Part shown: in pieces, positions 3,601 through 30,447 of the stretch | Numbering within the stretch: position 1 is the stretch's first letter | Layout: the number at the start of each line of letters is the position of its first letter | NCBI GenBank assembly: GCA_026671195.1 | Contig: JAPOHD010000001.1 | Coordinates: 1 to 35,109, forward strand | Length of the DNA stretch: 35,109 nt | Source: Draconibacterium aestuarii | GTDB taxonomy: Bacteria > Bacteroidota > Bacteroidia > Bacteroidales > Prolixibacteraceae | Direction: 5' to 3' | Notes under the pieces: model-generated | Databases searched by the model: none | Seen by the model: the letters and a program-made list of their open reading frames with translations, nothing else | What the model was told of the DNA's origin: nothing | Position numbers and translations under genes: made by a program

Positions 3601-4182
3601 TTAGCCTTTGGGGATACAAACCACATGATGTTTGTTTTCGTTTACGATATTGAATAAACCGGAATCCGTAATTTTAAAAATGGTTTTAACACGCGGTTGG
3701 TGACCATCTTCAATGATTACACTGCCATCGGGTTTTACGATTCGTGCCAGTTCTGTTAAAAGATTTACGGGTTGTTCTATCATATGAAACATATCTAGCG
3801 CGTAAACCACATCAGCTGTATTGTTGGGGATGGCGCACGAATAATCATCTGCCAAAAATGCCTCCACATTTTTCAATCCGTATTTCTTGGCTATTTGCTC
3901 AACGTTTTTTATGGCCAGTGGGTGGATGTCGACCGCCAAAACTTTTCCTTTAGTGCCAACAGCTTCCGAGGCATTTTTTATATAGCGGGCAGGGCCACAG
4001 CCATAATCAACCACTACCTGTCCTTTTTGCAAATTGAGGGTATTAAAATTCTTGTTAGAATAATTACCGAAAAGGTCAGCTATTTTCATGGTAAAGCTCA
4101 TCATCCTGAAAAACAGATTGGGAATAGTTTCGTGTTCAGTTCCTGTAACTACAACGCCAATGGTTCTCTTTTTTGTTTTCAT
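3601..4182 (-). CDS. Class I SAM-dependent methyltransferase
   Basis: 193 residues starting MKTKKRTIGVV. SAM-binding motif I is VVDYGCGPARYI (about residues 57-68). It is followed by the acidic motif II VLAVDIHPLAIKNVEQ, and by ADVVYALDMFHMIEQP and LARIVKPDGSVIIEDGH, the usual order of a UbiE/Methyltransf_11-type Rossmann fold. No substrate-specific domain is visible, so the acceptor (quinone, lipid, metalloid or small molecule) is unknown. It is on the same strand as the interrupted SQR-like gene, 110 bp upstream of it, and the pair could be cotranscribed. Length is normal for a single-domain enzyme. The fold is certain and the function is not. Confidence 0.85.
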   Translation of the reverse strand: MKTKKRTIGVVVTGTEHETIPNLFFRMMSFTMKIADLFGNYSNKNFNTLNLQKGQVVVDYGCGPARYIKNASEAVGTKGKVLAVDIHPLAIKNVEQIAKKYGLKNVEAFLADDYSCAIPNNTADVVYALDMFHMIEQPVNLLTELARIVKPDGSVIIEDGHQPRVKTIFKITDSGLFNIVNENKHHVVCIPKG

Positions 4183-4624
4183 TTTCTGTTTTGTTACTTG
4201 TTTTTAGCTGATATAAAGGTAGTAATGTAAAATCTGGCGACGAATTATTTTTTTTGAAAATGGGAAATTTATCGGTGAAAGGAGTCGTACCTTTTTTGCG
4301 TTATTCAATTGAAAAAATCGTTTGATGATTTATAAATGATAGACCAAAGGTTGACAATATTTATGTTTCAGGGAATATTGTTTGCTTTTGGTAGCCCTGC
4401 TACCGCTCGATTCTACTTTAAATCCGCATATCTCACAATTTTTTAATTTATTTGTTTTGGCTTTATTGAATTCGTTGCTTTTGGTTGCAATTTTTAATAA
4501 ACCAACATGGTTTTGAATTAATTTTTATCCTCTTTAATGATGTTTGTTAAAGTTTGGACATATTATATTTATTGGTATTGATTCTTCCTCAGTATTGAGC
4601 CCGGGCATCAACAAGTCAATTGCC
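4183..4624. other. Intergenic AT-rich spacer
   Basis: No protein-like ORF. It holds a small hairpin at 4390-4404 (GGTAG/CTACC arms, 5-nt loop). The stretch next to 4625 should contain the end of the degraded insertion sequence, but I could not pick out a terminal inverted repeat. Confidence 0.5.
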
Positions 4625-6070: not shown

Positions 6071-8200
6071 ATGAAGTATTTATTTATAACCATTACTGTT
6101 ATGGTGATAAGCATTCAGGTTAACGCCCAGCGCTCAATAAATTTCGAAGTATTTACCAATTCCTTCTTCTATCAGAATCAGGAAATAAATACCAACAAAA
6201 AAATTCACACGAATGACATCCGTCAGTTTTATCTGACAGTAAACGATACCTGGATGTTTCTTCATGCAAATGGCAGTATTCAAAAAAGTAGTGGCAGTGG
6301 ATTCACAAGTATTGATAATGCAGTTTACCGTGATCATCCCTCTTACAGTAAAGAACCGGCAACCTTCTTTTTCCCGATTTCTGAGGAAGAGTATTACTTA
6401 AGTACAGGTAAAGAACTGATCTTTGTTAAACCAGATAACACTGCACAATTCCTTGCTTCCGAAAAAGATTTCAGGCAGTTGAAGCCTCTCGAACTTAACA
6501 TTGTACAGCTAACAGCAGCTTCTAAAAATGATAATGGTGAAGTTTTTTTGGCAGGACTAAACATTGCCCGAAAAGAAACCGGTATTGATGGTGTTACAGC
6601 CGGGCTTGAGAATAATCCCAATGGTATTTTTAAAATTGCTGATGGTACTATTGAACAATATGATCCGGTGCCGGGTAAACCCGTGAATGTTTTAGTCTGT
6701 GCAGGCAATGGTATTACCTGGGCTGCAACCGATAAAGAACTGTTAAAATATGAAGATGGAGCCTGGAAAGTGTATGACGAAAAATATTTTAATCTGGAGG
6801 AGTATTTCATTGTTGATATTTGTGTTGATTCCCAGAACAGGTTGTGGGTGGCAACAAACAAAGCAGTAGGCGAATTTGCCGATAATGAATTTAAGGCTTC
6901 GAACTTTTTAGATGACATTGAAGAAATTCAATACCAGACAATCCATGTTGATGATAACAATATTATCTGGTTGGGTACACGGAATCATGGTGCTTTTATG
7001 ATTTGGAATGATGTAAAAAATCATTATTCAACGACGAACAGCCCATTGGTTTCTAACTCAGTGAGGGGGATATATTCGACTGGTGATAACAAAATAATAT
7101 TTGTTTCAGGGGGACGAACTGTGAACAAAGACGAGAAAATCATTTCCCAATTTGGCGGTAGTGGTATCACAACACTTGAAATTGATAATCGGTATTTTTC
7201 AAAAGAATTTAAAATGTTGAGTGCCTTTAATTCGGACGACTCCTTTGAGTACAGGACATTTCAAACGAATAACGGAAGTATCTATTCCTTAAAAGAGACT
7301 AAATTATTCAAGGTTGAAGGAGGCAAGTTTGAAGAGATTGGAATATACCCGGATAATAAATTGCTGAATTACATTCAGGAGGTTGCATTTGATTCGATAG
7401 GGCAAATTTGGGCAGCCACAAACCACGGTTTGAAAAGGTTTGATGGTACTGCTTCTGTAACATTTGACGCAGATCCGGAAATTGCGAAGAAACAGGTTTT
7501 GCATGTTGCAGCCGATAAGAACGGGCACGCCTGGATTGGCACACGAGCCGGACTTGCCAAATTTGATGGAAAGAATTGGACGGGCTACAATAAAAAGAAT
7601 TCAGCTTTGCCTGATAATACAATTAAAGCAGTTTTTTGCGATAGCAAGAATAATACCTGGGTAGGCAGTAAAAATTGGTTGGCCGTAATAAAAGATGGTA
7701 ATTTTACTGTACACGATAAAAAAACTTCTGAAATTGGGAAAGCCGGTGTTTTTAAAATTAAGGAAGCTCCTAATGGAGATATTTGGATGGGTGCCGGTGA
7801 TGGACTGGCAAAATACAGCAATGGAAATTTTGAGTTTGTAGATGCTTTTAAAAAGAAATACCCCGGAGATTTTTTTATTTACAATGATTATATAATTGCA
7901 CGTGCTTCATCGGTGGGTATTATTGCTTATAATATGGCAACTGAAGAGTTCAAAACGTACGACGACTTTTTGTTAAGCAAAAAAGTAAATGGAATCGGAT
8001 TAGTAGGCGATGAAATCTGGATACAAATCAACGAACCCAAAAAGATGAGTGGTCTTTCTCCAACAGAAAAGGCTGCATTGGAAGAACAACGAAAAAAGAT
8101 TCCGGAGGAACACCTGCGAATCATGGATAATGATAAAAACTTTGATTACGAATATACTTTAATTAAATATCCATTGGAAAAACTTCTGGAGCGTAAATAG
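6071..8200 (+). CDS. Secreted beta-propeller protein with two-component-regulator-type propeller repeats
   Basis: 709 residues with a clear signal peptide (MKYLFITITVMVISIQVNAQ, cleavage after NAQ). The rest is a chain of propeller blades with the recurring pattern D-x-x-N-x-x-W-(I/V)-G-T-x-x-G-(L/A)-x-x-(F/Y)-(D/N)-G, for example HAWIGTRAGLAKFDGKNWT, NTWVGSKNWLAVIKDGNFT, IWMGAGDGLAKYSNGNFE and IWAATNHGLKRFDG. These resemble the Reg_prop repeats in the periplasmic sensor of Bacteroidota hybrid two-component systems. No transmembrane helix, histidine kinase, or DNA-binding domain follows; the chain ends in a charged tail (YPLEKLLERK). It therefore looks like a free periplasmic or exported propeller, perhaps a binding or scaffold protein. 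The flanking genes (IS remnant, citrate synthase) give no functional hint. Confidence 0.85.
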   Translation: MKYLFITITVMVISIQVNAQRSINFEVFTNSFFYQNQEINTNKKIHTNDIRQFYLTVNDTWMFLHANGSIQKSSGSGFTSIDNAVYRDHPSYSKEPATFFFPISEEEYYLSTGKELIFVKPDNTAQFLASEKDFRQLKPLELNIVQLTAASKNDNGEVFLAGLNIARKETGIDGVTAGLENNPNGIFKIADGTIEQYDPVPGKPVNVLVCAGNGITWAATDKELLKYEDGAWKVYDEKYFNLEEYFIVDICVDSQNRLWVATNKAVGEFADNEFKASNFLDDIEEIQYQTIHVDDNNIIWLGTRNHGAFMIWNDVKNHYSTTNSPLVSNSVRGIYSTGDNKIIFVSGGRTVNKDEKIISQFGGSGITTLEIDNRYFSKEFKMLSAFNSDDSFEYRTFQTNNGSIYSLKETKLFKVEGGKFEEIGIYPDNKLLNYIQEVAFDSIGQIWAATNHGLKRFDGTASVTFDADPEIAKKQVLHVAADKNGHAWIGTRAGLAKFDGKNWTGYNKKNSALPDNTIKAVFCDSKNNTWVGSKNWLAVIKDGNFTVHDKKTSEIGKAGVFKIKEAPNGDIWMGAGDGLAKYSNGNFEFVDAFKKKYPGDFFIYNDYIIARASSVGIIAYNMATEEFKTYDDFLLSKKVNGIGLVGDEIWIQINEPKKMSGLSPTEKAALEEQRKKIPEEHLRIMDNDKNFDYEYTLIKYPLEKLLERK

Positions 8201-8296
8201 TTCTTGTTCCATTTTATTTCGAACAGAGTCTTTAATAATTTAGCTACGCTGATTTTCAATTCAGAATATTTGTGTTTCAGCAAGGCGTAAAATGAG

Positions 8297-9698: not shown

Positions 9699-10964
9699 TT
9701 AGTGCATATTTTTAATAATGGCATCGGCAAATTCGGAAGTGGTTAAAAGCGTGGCACCTTCCATTTGTGCATGCAAATCAGATGTTACTTTTCGCCGTGC
9801 AAATACATGTTCCATTGCATCGTACACATGTTCGGCAGCTTTGTCCCAGCCCATGTATTCCAGCATCATAACTCCTGAAAGAATAAGAGAGCCCGGATTG
9901 GCTTTCCCTGTTCCTGCAATGTTAGGCGCGGTACCATGTGTAGCTTCAAAAATAGCATAACCACTCAGGTAGTTGATGTTGGCTCCCGGCGATATTCCAA
10001 TACCTCCAACCATGGCAGCTAGTTGGTCTGAAACATAGTCGCCGTTAAGATTCATTGTGGCAATTACCGAGTGGTCCCATGGATGAAGCAATGACTCCTG
10101 CAAAAATGCATCGGTGATACAGTCTTTTACAATTACCTTTCCGTCTTTTTTTGCAGCTTCCAGAGCTTTGTCGGCATCTAACTGACCTTTTTCTTTTTTT
10201 ATTTTTTCAAATTCACGCCAGGTAAACGTCTGTTCCGCAAATTCGTTTTCAGCCAAATCATAACTCCAGTTTTTAAATGCACCTTCGGTAAATTTCATAA
10301 TATTACCCTTGTGCACAATTGTTACTGAAGGCAGATTTCGTTCGATGGCATACTCAATGGCAGCTTTTGTTAAACGCTCTGATCCATCCTTCGAAATGGG
10401 TTTAATTCCAAACGACGATGATTCGGGGAAACGAATTTTGTCCACTCCCATTTCGTTGATCAGAAAATCGCGGAATTTTTTGGTCTTTTCTTCACCAGTC
10501 ATGTATTCGATACCTGCATAAATATCTTCAGTGTTTTCTCTGAAAATGTGCATGTCGACCATGGATGGATAACGAATAGGGGAGGGTACACCTTTGAACC
10601 AGCGAACAGGTCGTACGCAAACATACAAATCAAGTGTTTGACGCAGTGCAACGTTTAACGAACGGATACCTTCGCCAACCGGAGTTTGCAGTGGACCTTT
10701 AATTCCGATCAAATATTCTTTAAAAGCTTCCAGCGTTTCATCCGGCATATAAGTACCGGTTTCACGAAACGCTTTTTCTCCGGCTAAAACTTCCTTCCAG
10801 GTAATTTTTCGGGAGTCTCCGTAAGCTTTTGAAACAGCTGCATCAATAACCCTTTGCGACGGGCCACTGATGTCCTTTCCTATGCCATCACCTTCAATAA
10901 ACGGGATTGTTGGAAAATCAGGTACTACCAACTTCCCGTTAACTATTTTGGTTTTATTTGTCAT
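9699..10964 (-). CDS. icd: Isocitrate dehydrogenase, E. coli Icd-type fold with non-NADP cofactor residues
   Basis: 421 residues. It converts isocitrate to 2-oxoglutarate and CO2. Substrate-site features are intact: Ser102 in [11 protein letters not shown] (E. coli Ser113, the IDH-kinase site), [11 protein letters not shown], the [14 protein letters not shown] lysine region and [16 protein letters not shown] metal-binding Asp residues. The four residues that hold the NADP 2'-phosphate in E. coli (Lys344, Tyr345, Tyr391, Arg395) are here Asn348, Ile349, Ser395 and Ala399 by alignment around HGTAPNIAG and VTSDLHAQ. I infer NAD preference or relaxed specificity. It lies between gltA and the GxxExxY unit; a second, unrelated-type IDH is encoded just upstream. 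Confidence 0.95.
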
Positions 10965-10970
10965 ATATAT

Positions 10971-11485
10971 TTCTCGCAGATTTCGCGGATTATCGCTGAT
11001 ATTATAATTTATTTACAACTCTTTTTATCGAGTCTGAGATTGATTCTGAATTAAAATTAACCAGTATTCCCAGCTTTTTGTTCGAAAGCTTTAAATAGGT
11101 TAATACTTGTTTGTAGTGAACGTTTGCCAATGTTTCTACTGATTTTAATTCAATAATTACTTTGTCTTCAATTAAAATATCAATTCTGAATCCTTGTTCA
11201 AATTTTATTTTTTCATACATAAAGGGTAGTGCAACTTGTCGTTCGATTGAATACCCTAATTTCTCAATTTCGTAACTTAATGCTGTTTCATAAACCGATT
11301 CAAATAAACCCGGTCCAAGATTATTGTAAACTTTGAAAATCGCGCCTCTTACATCGTAGGAAATTTGATTTTCAATACTGTCCATTTATTTTTGCTTTTA
11401 AGTTACAATATATTGTTATTATTTCAGACAGATGACTCAGATTTTTGCGTATTAATTTCCACGTTATCCGCGTAATCTGCGAGAA
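10971..11485. mobile_element. Compact GxxExxY unit with terminal inverted repeats
   Basis: The ends are ttctcgcagatttcgcggat (10971-10990) and, on the minus strand, the same 20 bases with one change (11485-11466). Inside each end the sequence continues as degenerate 9-mers of the CGCrGATTw kind. The unit contains one gene, 11002-11385, and fits exactly between the icd start codon (10964) and the idh stop codon (11489-11491). Imperfect terminal palindromes around GxxExxY genes are, as I recall, typical of this family and suggest mobility; no transposase is encoded here. Confidence 0.7.
11002..11385 (-). CDS. GxxExxY family protein (predicted PD-(D/E)XK nuclease-like)
   Basis: 127 residues. 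The family signature GLFESVY is at about residues 25-31, after an N-terminal helix ([17 protein letters not shown]). Next comes a nuclease-like core: [21 protein letters not shown], where the D-x-(n)-E-x-K arrangement (Asp in RIDIL, Glu and Lys in IELK) matches the PD-(D/E)XK active site, then a C-terminal helix [11 protein letters not shown] and LGILVNFN. The family is widespread in Bacteroidota and environmental bacteria, often in several copies per genome, and its function is not established. Here it sits inside inverted repeats between two isocitrate dehydrogenase genes and on their strand, so it would be read through by TCA-operon transcription. Confidence 0.9.
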
Positions 11486-11488
11486 AAT

Positions 11489-12715
11489 TTAATTCAGTTT
11501 TGCCTGAAGATTTTCGTCAAGTGCTTCCAAAAATTGTTCGGTAGTTAGATAATCAGCTTCGGTTAATGCTTTACCATGAACAATCAAGGCCAAATCTTTG
11601 GTCATTTTACCCGATTCAACGGTTTCAATACATACTTGTTCCAATGCATTGGCAAAACCAACTAATTCTTCGTTTTCATCCAGTTTCCCACGGAAAGCCA
11701 AACCTCTGGTCCATGCAAAAATGGAAGCTATTGGATTTGTTGATGTTGGTTTACCTTGCTGGTGCTGACGGAAGTGACGTGTAACAGTACCATGTGCTGC
11801 TTCTGCTTCCATTGTTTTTCCATCCGGAGTAACCAAGGTCGATGTCATTAATCCAAGCGATCCAAAACCTTGCGCTACCGTATCACTTTGTACGTCGCCA
11901 TCGTAATTTTTACAAGCCCATACATATCCGCCTTCCCATTTCATGGCTGCGGCTACCATGTCGTCGATTAAACGATGTTCATATGTAATTCCAAGTTCAT
12001 CAAATTTTTCCTTGTAATCAGATTCAAATACTTCCTGGAAAATATCTTTAAATCTTCCATCGTATCTTTTCAAAATCGTATTTTTTGTTGACATGTACAA
12101 CGGCCATTTTTTTGTAATTGCCTGTTGCATGCAGGAATGCGCAAATCCATAAATAGATTCGTCGGTATTGTACATTGCCATTGCAATTCCATCTCCCTGG
12201 AAATCGTATACGTTATGTGTAACAGGTTCGCTGCCGTCTTCAGGAGTAAAAGTAATGGTTAACTTCCCTTTTCCTTTTGATACAAAGTCGGTGGCACGGT
12301 ACTGGTCGCCAAAAGCATGACGTCCGATACATATTGGTTTGGTCCATCCCGGAACCAGGCGTGGTATATTATTTATGATAATTGGCTCACGAAAAACAGT
12401 TCCACCTAAAATGTTACGTATGGTACCATTGGGCGATTTCCACATTTCTTTCAAGCCAAATTCTTCAACTCGCGCTTCATCGGGAGTAATGGTCGCACAC
12501 TTTACGCCAACACCATATTTTTTTATTGCATTTGCAGCATCAATGGTAATCTGATCGTCTGTTTCATCACGGCTTTCCATACCTAAATCGTAATATTTTA
12601 AATCGATATCCAGATAAGGAAGGATAAGTTTTTGCTTGATAAAATCCCAAATTACTCTTGTCATCTCATCGCCGTCGAGCTCTACGACCGGATTTTGAAC
12701 TTTGATTTTTTGCAT
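11489..12715 (-). CDS. NADP-dependent isocitrate dehydrogenase, eukaryotic homodimeric type
   Basis: 408 residues close to the length of cytosolic IDH1 (about 414). It shows [36 protein letters not shown], Arg132 in [16 protein letters not shown] (same numbering as human IDH1 R132), the [29 protein letters not shown] metal-binding segment, and the NADP loop [17 protein letters not shown] with the Arg-His pair that binds the 2'-phosphate. It makes 2-oxoglutarate and NADPH in the cytoplasm. This lineage is distinct from the Icd encoded downstream, so the two enzymes probably supply different reduced cofactors. It follows acn on the same strand after a 198-bp spacer with its own -7 box. Confidence 0.96.
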
Positions 12716-30153: not shown

Positions 30154-30159
30154 TTTCTT

Positions 30160-30167
30160 TATCTTTG
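30160..30167 (+). promoter_or_regulatory. -7 promoter box for the B12 operon
   Basis: TATCTTTG is a perfect TAnnTTTG, ending a few bases before the riboswitch; predicted transcription start about 30174. Confidence 0.65.
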
Positions 30168-30169
30168 TG

Positions 30170-30330
30170 CGCGTTGGTTGCGAATTGTTTCGCTTTAAGG
30201 GAATCCGGTGAAAGACCGGGACTGTACCCGCAGCTGTAAATCCATGTATTGATTGCTACTTACGCCACTGTTTGAAATTAAATAACGGGAAGGCCGCAAT
30301 TGGAGGATGAGTCAGAAGACCTGCCAGCAA
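30170..30330 (+). ncRNA. Cobalamin (adenosylcobalamin) riboswitch
   Basis: Hallmarks appear in the right order: AAGGGAATCCGGTGAAAGAC, CGGGACTGTACCCGCAGCTGTAA, GCCACTG, GGGAAGGCCGC and the closing GATGAGTCAGAAGACCTGCC, which contains the B12-box-like segment. Ligand binding normally represses the downstream genes, here B12 import and adenosylation. About 117 nt separate it from the first ATG and would contain the expression platform. No strong U-tailed terminator is visible, so control may be translational. Confidence 0.97.
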
Positions 30331-30447
30331 AAATTTTAAATGAACGAACTTCGGGAATAAAGTTTCGGGAATCATACTTCTGATTTCGATCCATTTCCCT
30401 GATTTTGGTTAAGCAGATTATTAATTGAAGAGCGTAAAATTATTTTT

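Follow-up and report, generated by a model that had tools for sequence, protein, structure and literature searches.

Several kinds of palindromic or short-period DNA have been described between bacterial genes. REPINs (doublets of repetitive extragenic palindromes, REPs, forming hairpins) are, in the available part of the source, pairs of palindromes that form imperfect intergenic hairpins and are tied to a particular gene type (PMC3116915). Tandem short repeats, paired on opposite strands at variable distance and present in multiple copies, are reported for Geobacter in the accessible portion of that article (PMC2700814), and the TAACTGA heptamers of Beggiatoaceae, as far as the text at hand describes them, are intergenic, occur also inside operons and are scattered over phyla, the author proposing that a protein which binds the repeats may itself be mobile, as the element proper (PMC4679880). 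In the S23-coding intervening sequence (IVS) of Coxiella, again from a partial text, an imperfect stem of 28 bp carries the open reading frame (ORF) in its loop, and tandem heptamers lie upstream of the ORF (PMC4990558). In the consulted parts of two of these sources, short-period intergenic repeats have been noted piecemeal ('multicopy sequences', 'global regulator sites', heptamers), without a known maker (PMC2700814, PMC4679880). Here we describe a unit made of a GxxExxY gene within inverted repeats, located between two isocitrate dehydrogenase genes (icd and idh) in a 35,109-nt stretch of Draconibacterium aestuarii DNA (contig JAPOHD010000001.1, positions 1 to 35,109), which is referred to as the window.

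The 127-aa GxxExxY gene is enclosed by 21-bp inverted repeats, complementary at 20 of 21 positions, with 475 nt between the arms, in agreement, but for one base pair of length, with an earlier note that had described one PD-(D/E)XK-like gene inside 20-bp inverted repeats with one mismatch. A hand calculation with uniform bases yields approximately 3e-6 as the chance expectation of finding, within about 600 bp, an inverted pair of 21-mers that has one mismatch or none. We lean towards the view that the unit belongs, as a member that carries a gene, to a widespread REPIN-like family of palindromic elements in which a GxxExxY nuclease acts on its own ends. The protein would recognize the repeat-built arms as a hairpin, a cruciform or an extruded single strand, and would nick them; the DNA bounded by the arms, gene included or not, would on occasion have been copied or moved to harmless positions in intergenic gaps, and gene-free hairpins would be non-autonomous derivatives of GxxExxY units, as REPINs are of RAYTs (REP-associated tyrosine transposases). 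The anatomy of the unit, the recurrence of its arms, the link between arms and protein, that between a gene and hairpins of the arm type T1, the polymorphic gaps and the copies at unrelated sites are observations; we infer that GxxExxY binds and cuts the arms and thereby causes dispersal. If this is true, a common protein family of unknown function would acquire a role, and REPIN-like elements a route without a Y1 transposase; linking one repeat grammar to a single nuclease family, and another to S23, provides for each a candidate partner testable at the bench. No literature joining GxxExxY to such repeats was found in a search that had most subscription journals and all preprints outside its reach, and the mentions of GxxExxY in the searched literature, in the portions available, do not concern repeats.

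Repeat-built arms of GxxExxY loci

Arms were scored in a set formed by the best 80 of at least 559 relatives plus 29 loci from Bacteroidota genomes, 108 of the 109 being usable (L and G numbers denote loci and genomes, respectively). A score of at least 13 was reached by 66 of the 108 GxxExxY loci and by 3 of 192 control ORFs, so that palindromic ends recur with GxxExxY genes. The idea of a chance palindrome in an ordinary intergenic gap, with which the 42 loci below that score would agree, is contradicted by these family-wide statistics and by the 20/21 complementarity of the window's arms, and its probability is negligible. The arms consist of inward-pointing tandem heptads of consensus CRCNRAK, 9-11 bp apart, in GxxExxY genes of several phyla. 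The 108 loci contain 530 heptads pointing inward and 217 outward, with approximately 55 in shuffles, counts that are descriptive because the core had been read off a portion of these data by eye; neither the swapped-arm control nor the ORF control depends on the core. The periodicity of the flanks (lag 9-10 signal, 0.313 and 0.301 versus 0.284 and 0.247 in the control) is weaker than that of S23 genes.

Judging from record titles, in which labels of metagenome-assembled genomes (MAGs) may be wrong, clear arms are found beyond Bacteroidota in Pirellulales (L225), Desulfobacteraceae (L228), a Rhizobium MAG (L230), Nostoc (L238), Acidobacteria (L261), Verrucomicrobia (L263) and Lentisphaerae (L273). 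Records without clear arms are those of Methanothrix (L295, score 8.5), Zetaproteobacteria (L274, 7.5; L283, 8.5), Pirellula (L281, 7.5) and a second one of Acidobacteria (L256, 7.5). Arm similarity grows with protein identity (Mantel r 0.39, and 0.27 below 60% identity, P 0.0005; 116 loci), and arms private to a unit can be identical throughout (51/51 nt in L223, 33/33 in L147). Spacer-versus-core identity was discarded as an own-arm signal, with values of 0.80 and 0.95 for own and 0.79 and 0.93 for swapped arms in alignments chosen by score.

The genome of D. aestuarii (G000) has three further GxxExxY genes, one with an in-frame TAA. Matched inverted arms are formed by CACAGATTA-type words in L004 (score 15.5) and by ACCACAAAGT-type words in L005 (score 17.0), and the stop-bearing copy (L006, score 8.0) has short-period repeats on both sides without a matched inverted pair. 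The four copies differ in end sequence and have, by eye, the repeat style alone in common, which is not the shared terminal repeat of classical insertion sequences (ISs) or miniature inverted-repeat transposable elements. A 17-nt end pattern is found in this genome with at most one mismatch only at the two arms of the unit, and with at most three mismatches 76 times, versus 14 for the reversed control; among three places with such matches that were read, L303 and L304 look by eye like gene-free hairpins. Of the expectation that further copies of the ends would exist, what stood is that ends of this kind recur; at up to one mismatch, the end sequence itself is confined to the unit.

Gene-free hairpins

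T1 denotes the arm type of the L185-type gene, and its matches, which count arms and include the gene's own, were collected in 37 genomes of the genus, in all of which the reversed pattern gave none. Nine genomes with a matching gene of at least 78% identity contain 8, 11, 21, 21, 22, 22, 24, 25 and 25 matches, and the 28 without it (next best, 45%) have a median of 1 and a maximum of 14. Thus, hairpins of one arm type are indeed commoner where the matching gene is present (median 22 versus 1, P 1e-5, for T1, an arm type other than that of the window's unit). Within one clade, the comparison of eight carriers with three non-carriers (7, 8 and 14 matches) gave P 0.012.

RAYTs are mostly single-copy and vertically inherited. 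Movement of the hairpins by another enzyme, a Y1/RAYT transposase or an IS, with GxxExxY riding in the loops, would be consistent with Y1_Tnp matches in 35 of the 37 genomes, with T1 hairpins in genomes lacking the matching gene and with a triple-core site at up to one mismatch in 1 of 12 Y1 loci. However, the number of Y1 matches correlates poorly with that of T1 matches (rho 0.23, P 0.17), the T1 site is in none of the 12 Y1 loci examined, G031 has 14 Y1 matches and no T1 match, and arm similarity follows the GxxExxY protein across phyla. We regard a passenger role as improbable; a particular Y1 subfamily or an IS may be the mover in a variant of it, and the Y1 transposase in general was rejected as partner, being unsupported by these counts.

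Complete T1 solos are imperfect hairpins of approximately 80-120 bp with GAAC...GTTC ends. After dereplicating 25 of them to 14, 13 of 56 A/T cells were found to match versus 22.8 expected (P 0.002), as were 24 of 56 A/G cells versus 28.4 expected (P 0.12), the two-state cells together giving 37/112 versus 51.2; an earlier T1 set, in which four of 19 hairpins were left out for a poor left arm or likely orthology, gave 25 of 90 matching cells versus 41.6 expected in the other 15. Such anti-matching may mean that perfect palindromes are selected against, or that the hairpins descend from ancestors that were already asymmetric.

Three hairpin sites of G002 were traced, with site A readable in 17 genomes, site C in nine and site B in G002 alone. 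Site A contains a T1-like hairpin in five genomes (G002, G024, G030, G012, G001), a CGCAGATT-type one in two, 7-bp-period repeats in three (G005, G029, G020), other sequence in two, one of them G000 with a longer insert of mixed look, and no insert in five. Site C is occupied by the hairpin in G002, G007 and G034, by a 20-bp 7-bp-period repeat in G009, whose flanks are 96-97% identical to those of G002, and G013, and by other sequence in G006 (7-bp-like by eye), G017 and G019, and has no insert in G000. Gaps therefore hold different element kinds in related species and change hands between them.

Two arrangements in G009 were noted separately. Eight T1 arms form a tandem array on one strand with a period of approximately 128 bp (G009:C21:252174-253096), and in L298 (G009:C21:323000-341000) nine T2-type arms (CACGAATT words, at most two mismatches) surround one GxxExxY gene, most of them in gaps of an apparent sugar/glycosyltransferase gene cluster, with an apparent decayed second GxxExxY copy beside the first.

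The GxxExxY protein

The window protein matches TIGR04256 (GxxExxY; 140.7 bits, cut-off 35) and PF13366 (PDDEXK_3; 138.6 bits, cut-off 22). Its AlphaFold2 model (mean predicted local distance difference test score, pLDDT, 95) has as best solved structure match 4ic1, with a Cas4/RecB-like PD-(D/E)XK nuclease fold; the nearest solved folds are DNA nucleases, and tRNA splicing endonucleases are also among the matches. A sequence search of solved structures with a 47-sequence profile gave no match up to E 1, and weak profile matches were obtained with Cas4 (E 0.0046) and phrog_1706 ('CRISPR/Cas system associated', E 2e-5). Alignment of the 47 sequences revealed an invariant E, D and ExK, among them D69, E79 and K81, so that both the fold and the D...ExK signature of the PD-(D/E)XK superfamily are present; Q93 and Y97 are near-invariant and resemble the QxxxY motif. 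Cas4 ligates an iron-sulphur cluster. None of the twelve invariant columns of the GxxExxY alignment is a cysteine. GxxExxY is proposed to be a minimal Cas4/RecB-like PD-(D/E)XK nuclease.

TIGR04256 matches are present in 33 of the 37 genus genomes, with up to ten per genome, fragments included, and none in the other four, and above cut-off in 0 of 14 control genomes; in Bacteroidota, 74 of 148 genomes have a match at E <= 0.001, 73 of them above cut-off. No match was found in 50,697 phage records, and matches were found in 7 of 72,556 plasmid records. A phage origin was set aside since no phage record matched, although two viral contigs did, and a defence system because the PADLOC matches were weak (all E >= 0.0036).

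The strongest rival explanation is that of a domesticated host gene, i.e. a vertically kept structure-specific nuclease whose binding sites, autoregulatory or chromosomal, are the hairpins, with no present-day mobility. Purifying selection (dN/dS 0.00-0.25 in 13 pairs tested), the phage and plasmid counts, the orthologous retention described below and the frequency of same-strand neighbours (upstream in 88/107, downstream in 80/106 loci) speak for it. On the other side are the number of matches per genome, from ten to none, and the unit-private arms identical over 33-51 nt, to which the state of the icd-idh gap and the copies at unrelated sites are to be added. On balance we consider domestication unlikely.

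The icd-idh locus

The features of the locus are as follows.

9699..10964, minus strand: downstream neighbour icd, NADP isocitrate dehydrogenase (TIGR00183, 592.1 bits; NF005425, 617.2 bits; both above cut-off)
10970..10990, plus strand: left arm, outer inverted repeat TTTCTCGCAGATTTCGCGGAT, 20/21 complementary to the right arm
10975..11001, plus strand: three tandem degenerate 9-bp units CGCAGATTT CGCGGATTA TCGCTGATA (by eye)
11002..11385, minus strand: GxxExxY gene, 127 aa, PD-(D/E)XK_3 nuclease-like protein (profile matches, AlphaFold2 model)
11386..11465, minus strand: inner right arm with weak degenerate units, and the AT-rich leader that precedes the gene (by eye)
11466..11486, minus strand: right arm, outer inverted repeat, reverse complement TTTCTCGCAGATTACGCGGAT (complementarity; reverse end-pattern match 11465-11481)
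11489..12715, minus strand: upstream neighbour idh, second NADP isocitrate dehydrogenase (TIGR00127, 758.8 bits, cut-off 397.15)

The family matches bear out the placement of the unit between two isocitrate dehydrogenase genes. Its edges leave 5 nt to the start codon of icd (10964) and 2 nt to the stop codon of idh (11489), and since it stops short of both, icd and idh are undamaged, as had been stated. The inward-pointing words of the left 9-bp units read, by eye, CGCAGAT, CGCGGAT and CGCTGAT, and 11386..11465 is the weakest part of the unit; the inward extension of the arms as degenerate 9-bp units is thus confirmed on the left and weaker on the right. On one strand the order is aconitase, idh, the unit, icd and citrate synthase, a series whose order and common strand suggest a single operon. 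No Rfam match was found at the unit. Elsewhere in the window, a Cobalamin riboswitch (RF00174, 99.3 bits) lies on the plus strand at 30158-30342, just upstream of plus-strand ORFs.

A search of 61 genomes returned 30 loci, 26 of which span the icd-idh junction. The unit is present in ten, all in one orientation and one (L040) with an in-frame TAG; two have remnants, a solo hairpin alone in L057 and a gutted unit in L058 (by eye), six have another palindrome and eight neither. The gap is therefore polymorphic, and presence of the unit in all relatives, which the earlier note had named as evidence against mobility, is not what is observed. That ten junctions are filled and eight lack any element or palindrome also argues against a domesticated host gene. 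Filled and unfilled states are interleaved on the icd/idh tree, from which several losses or gains follow. The unit of G000 has probably been inherited vertically as a resident of the idh-icd gap, the nearest relative examined having it at this site with 91% identity.

The other palindrome, unrelated and of approximately 100 bp (TGTCATTTCGAAGGAGG...CGAAATGACA), fills the gap in L051-L053, L055, L056 and L063. Of 12 loci with a Y1 transposase, four contain its short core, in one or two copies, and for this reason it may be a REP of those Y1 genes.

Copies at unrelated sites and age of movement

Among 102 genus loci, most of the high-identity protein pairs listed have common flanks, and inheritance is therefore mainly vertical. 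Exceptions are GxxExxY proteins 89-95% identical at sites without common flanks, which are not expected of a host gene. In the chief case, the alignment of the L187-type with L195/L209, similarity begins and stops at the arms (TGTCTGAAT... and ...ATTCAGACA), so that copies of one protein type can have ends in common; both sites come directly after permease gene ends that look alike by eye, which makes recombination between paralogous regions a possibility. A further pair of similar proteins at sites without common flanks is formed by L068 with either L067 or L073. L187 and L209 are themselves related genes about 5 kb apart (G002:C1, about 169.8 and 175.1 kb), each after a permease end.

Several findings weigh against the view of a nuclease-driven element family. 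Many copies are orthologous, as exemplified by 100% identical proteins with common flanks in four species, and a host role could therefore explain their retention. The pairs at unrelated sites are old, with synonymous divergence (dS) of 0.80-1.29; they are therefore not young copies, and a reading as young transposition was set aside. Comparison of filled with empty sites gave no clean case of a target duplication at the icd-idh gap or at sites A and C, and none of the target duplications sought at the icd-idh junction of relatives was convincing, a weak GTTTTAATA-like direct repeat being seen, by eye, at site C only. The 42 of 108 loci below the arm score belong here, as does the plain swapped-arm test in 33 genus loci, which was weak (own median 11.0 versus 9.0 swapped, with 5 of 33 reaching the 99% line), and for this reason the 108-locus set with ORF controls is taken as the main arm test. 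The three traced T1 sites look mostly inherited, and the solo arms mispair at fixed A/T positions, which is unexpected if perfect pairing is required. The gene-to-hairpin link concerns T1, which is not the arm type of the window's unit, the relatedness of the genomes deprives the carrier counts of independence, and T1 matches occur without the gene of at least 78% identity in G027 (14), G034 (14), G028 (12), G001 (9), G013 (8), G029 (7), G032 (7) and G004 (6).

The initial proposal of a mobile or homing element is thus supported in part, by recurrence, unrelated-site copies, the polymorphic gap and the T1 hairpin numbers; homing would be one conceivable mechanism, and recent movement finds no support in the dS of 0.80-1.29 or in the vertical inheritance of most high-identity pairs. 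The data suggest a class of unnamed, tiny, mostly ancient mobile elements.

S23 genes and a parallel 7-bp class

TIGR02436 four-helix (S23) genes are found in 36 of the 37 genus genomes. Their flanks are strongly 7-bp periodic (lag 7, 0.368; lag 14, 0.363; control, 0.25-0.28; 27/30 loci), and own arms are mildly better than swapped ones (median 13.0 versus 10.0). In L300, three S23/four-helix genes (4090-4440, 6515-6928, 7872-8249) occupy gaps of one ABC-transporter gene cluster.

The S23 genes raise the question of an RNA-level element like the 23S rRNA IVS, the arms being an RNA stem, with the ORF in its loop, at which the transcript is cut or which is protected from cutting. The layout of the Coxiella S23-coding IVS, as given in the available part of PMC4990558, the 7-bp-period flanks of the genus S23 loci and the mostly co-directional placement of GxxExxY genes with their neighbours are in keeping with it. 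The nearest solved folds, however, are DNA nucleases, though with tRNA splicing endonucleases among the matches, Rfam gave no match at the unit, and T1 solo hairpins mispair at fixed positions, leaving this explanation very improbable.

A broader proposal, that GxxExxY drives an unnamed, phylum-crossing class of palindromic mobile DNA by reading a CRCNRAK grammar rather than fixed ends, that S23 runs a parallel 7-bp class including the 23S rRNA IVS, and that both compete for the same gaps, is tentative, a possibility that we hold somewhat short of probable.

Comparison with known systems

GxxExxY is like Cas4/RecB-like nucleases in its fold, its weak profile matches and its invariant E, D and ExK, and unlike them in being of only 127 aa and without invariant cysteine. 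With S23 and the 23S rRNA IVS the unit shares the layout of imperfect inverted repeats whose loop contains a small ORF, tandem heptamers being reported beside the Coxiella ORF in the accessible text, and the genus copies of S23 are likewise in intergenic gaps, with 7-bp-period flanks. However, S23 is an unrelated helical protein whose repeats have a period of 7 bp instead of 9 bp, RNase III removes the classic IVS from the rRNA in which it sits, and the unit described here lies between icd and idh with a GxxExxY rather than S23 ORF.

In the portions of the sources available, the Geobacter repeats are similarly paired, tandem, short, on opposite strands and multicopy, but have an octanucleotide unit, are read as possible IHF/HU sites and have no nuclease gene named (PMC2700814), and the Beggiatoaceae TAACTGA repeats are also short-period direct repeats of intergenic regions, but mostly direct rather than inverted and with no binding protein identified (PMC4679880). 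From REPINs and RAYTs the units differ in several respects: the gene between the arms belongs to PF13366, a PD-(D/E)XK nuclease and not a Y1 tyrosine transposase; degenerate heptads in tandem, at a spacing of 9-11 bp, make up the ends; and a genome can have as many as ten matches, with differing arm sequences. A trait in common, as observed for T1, is the presence in carriers of many gene-free hairpins of the gene's arm type. In common with REPINs, as far as the partial text describes them, they have the pairs of palindromes, the imperfect intergenic hairpins and the association with one gene type.
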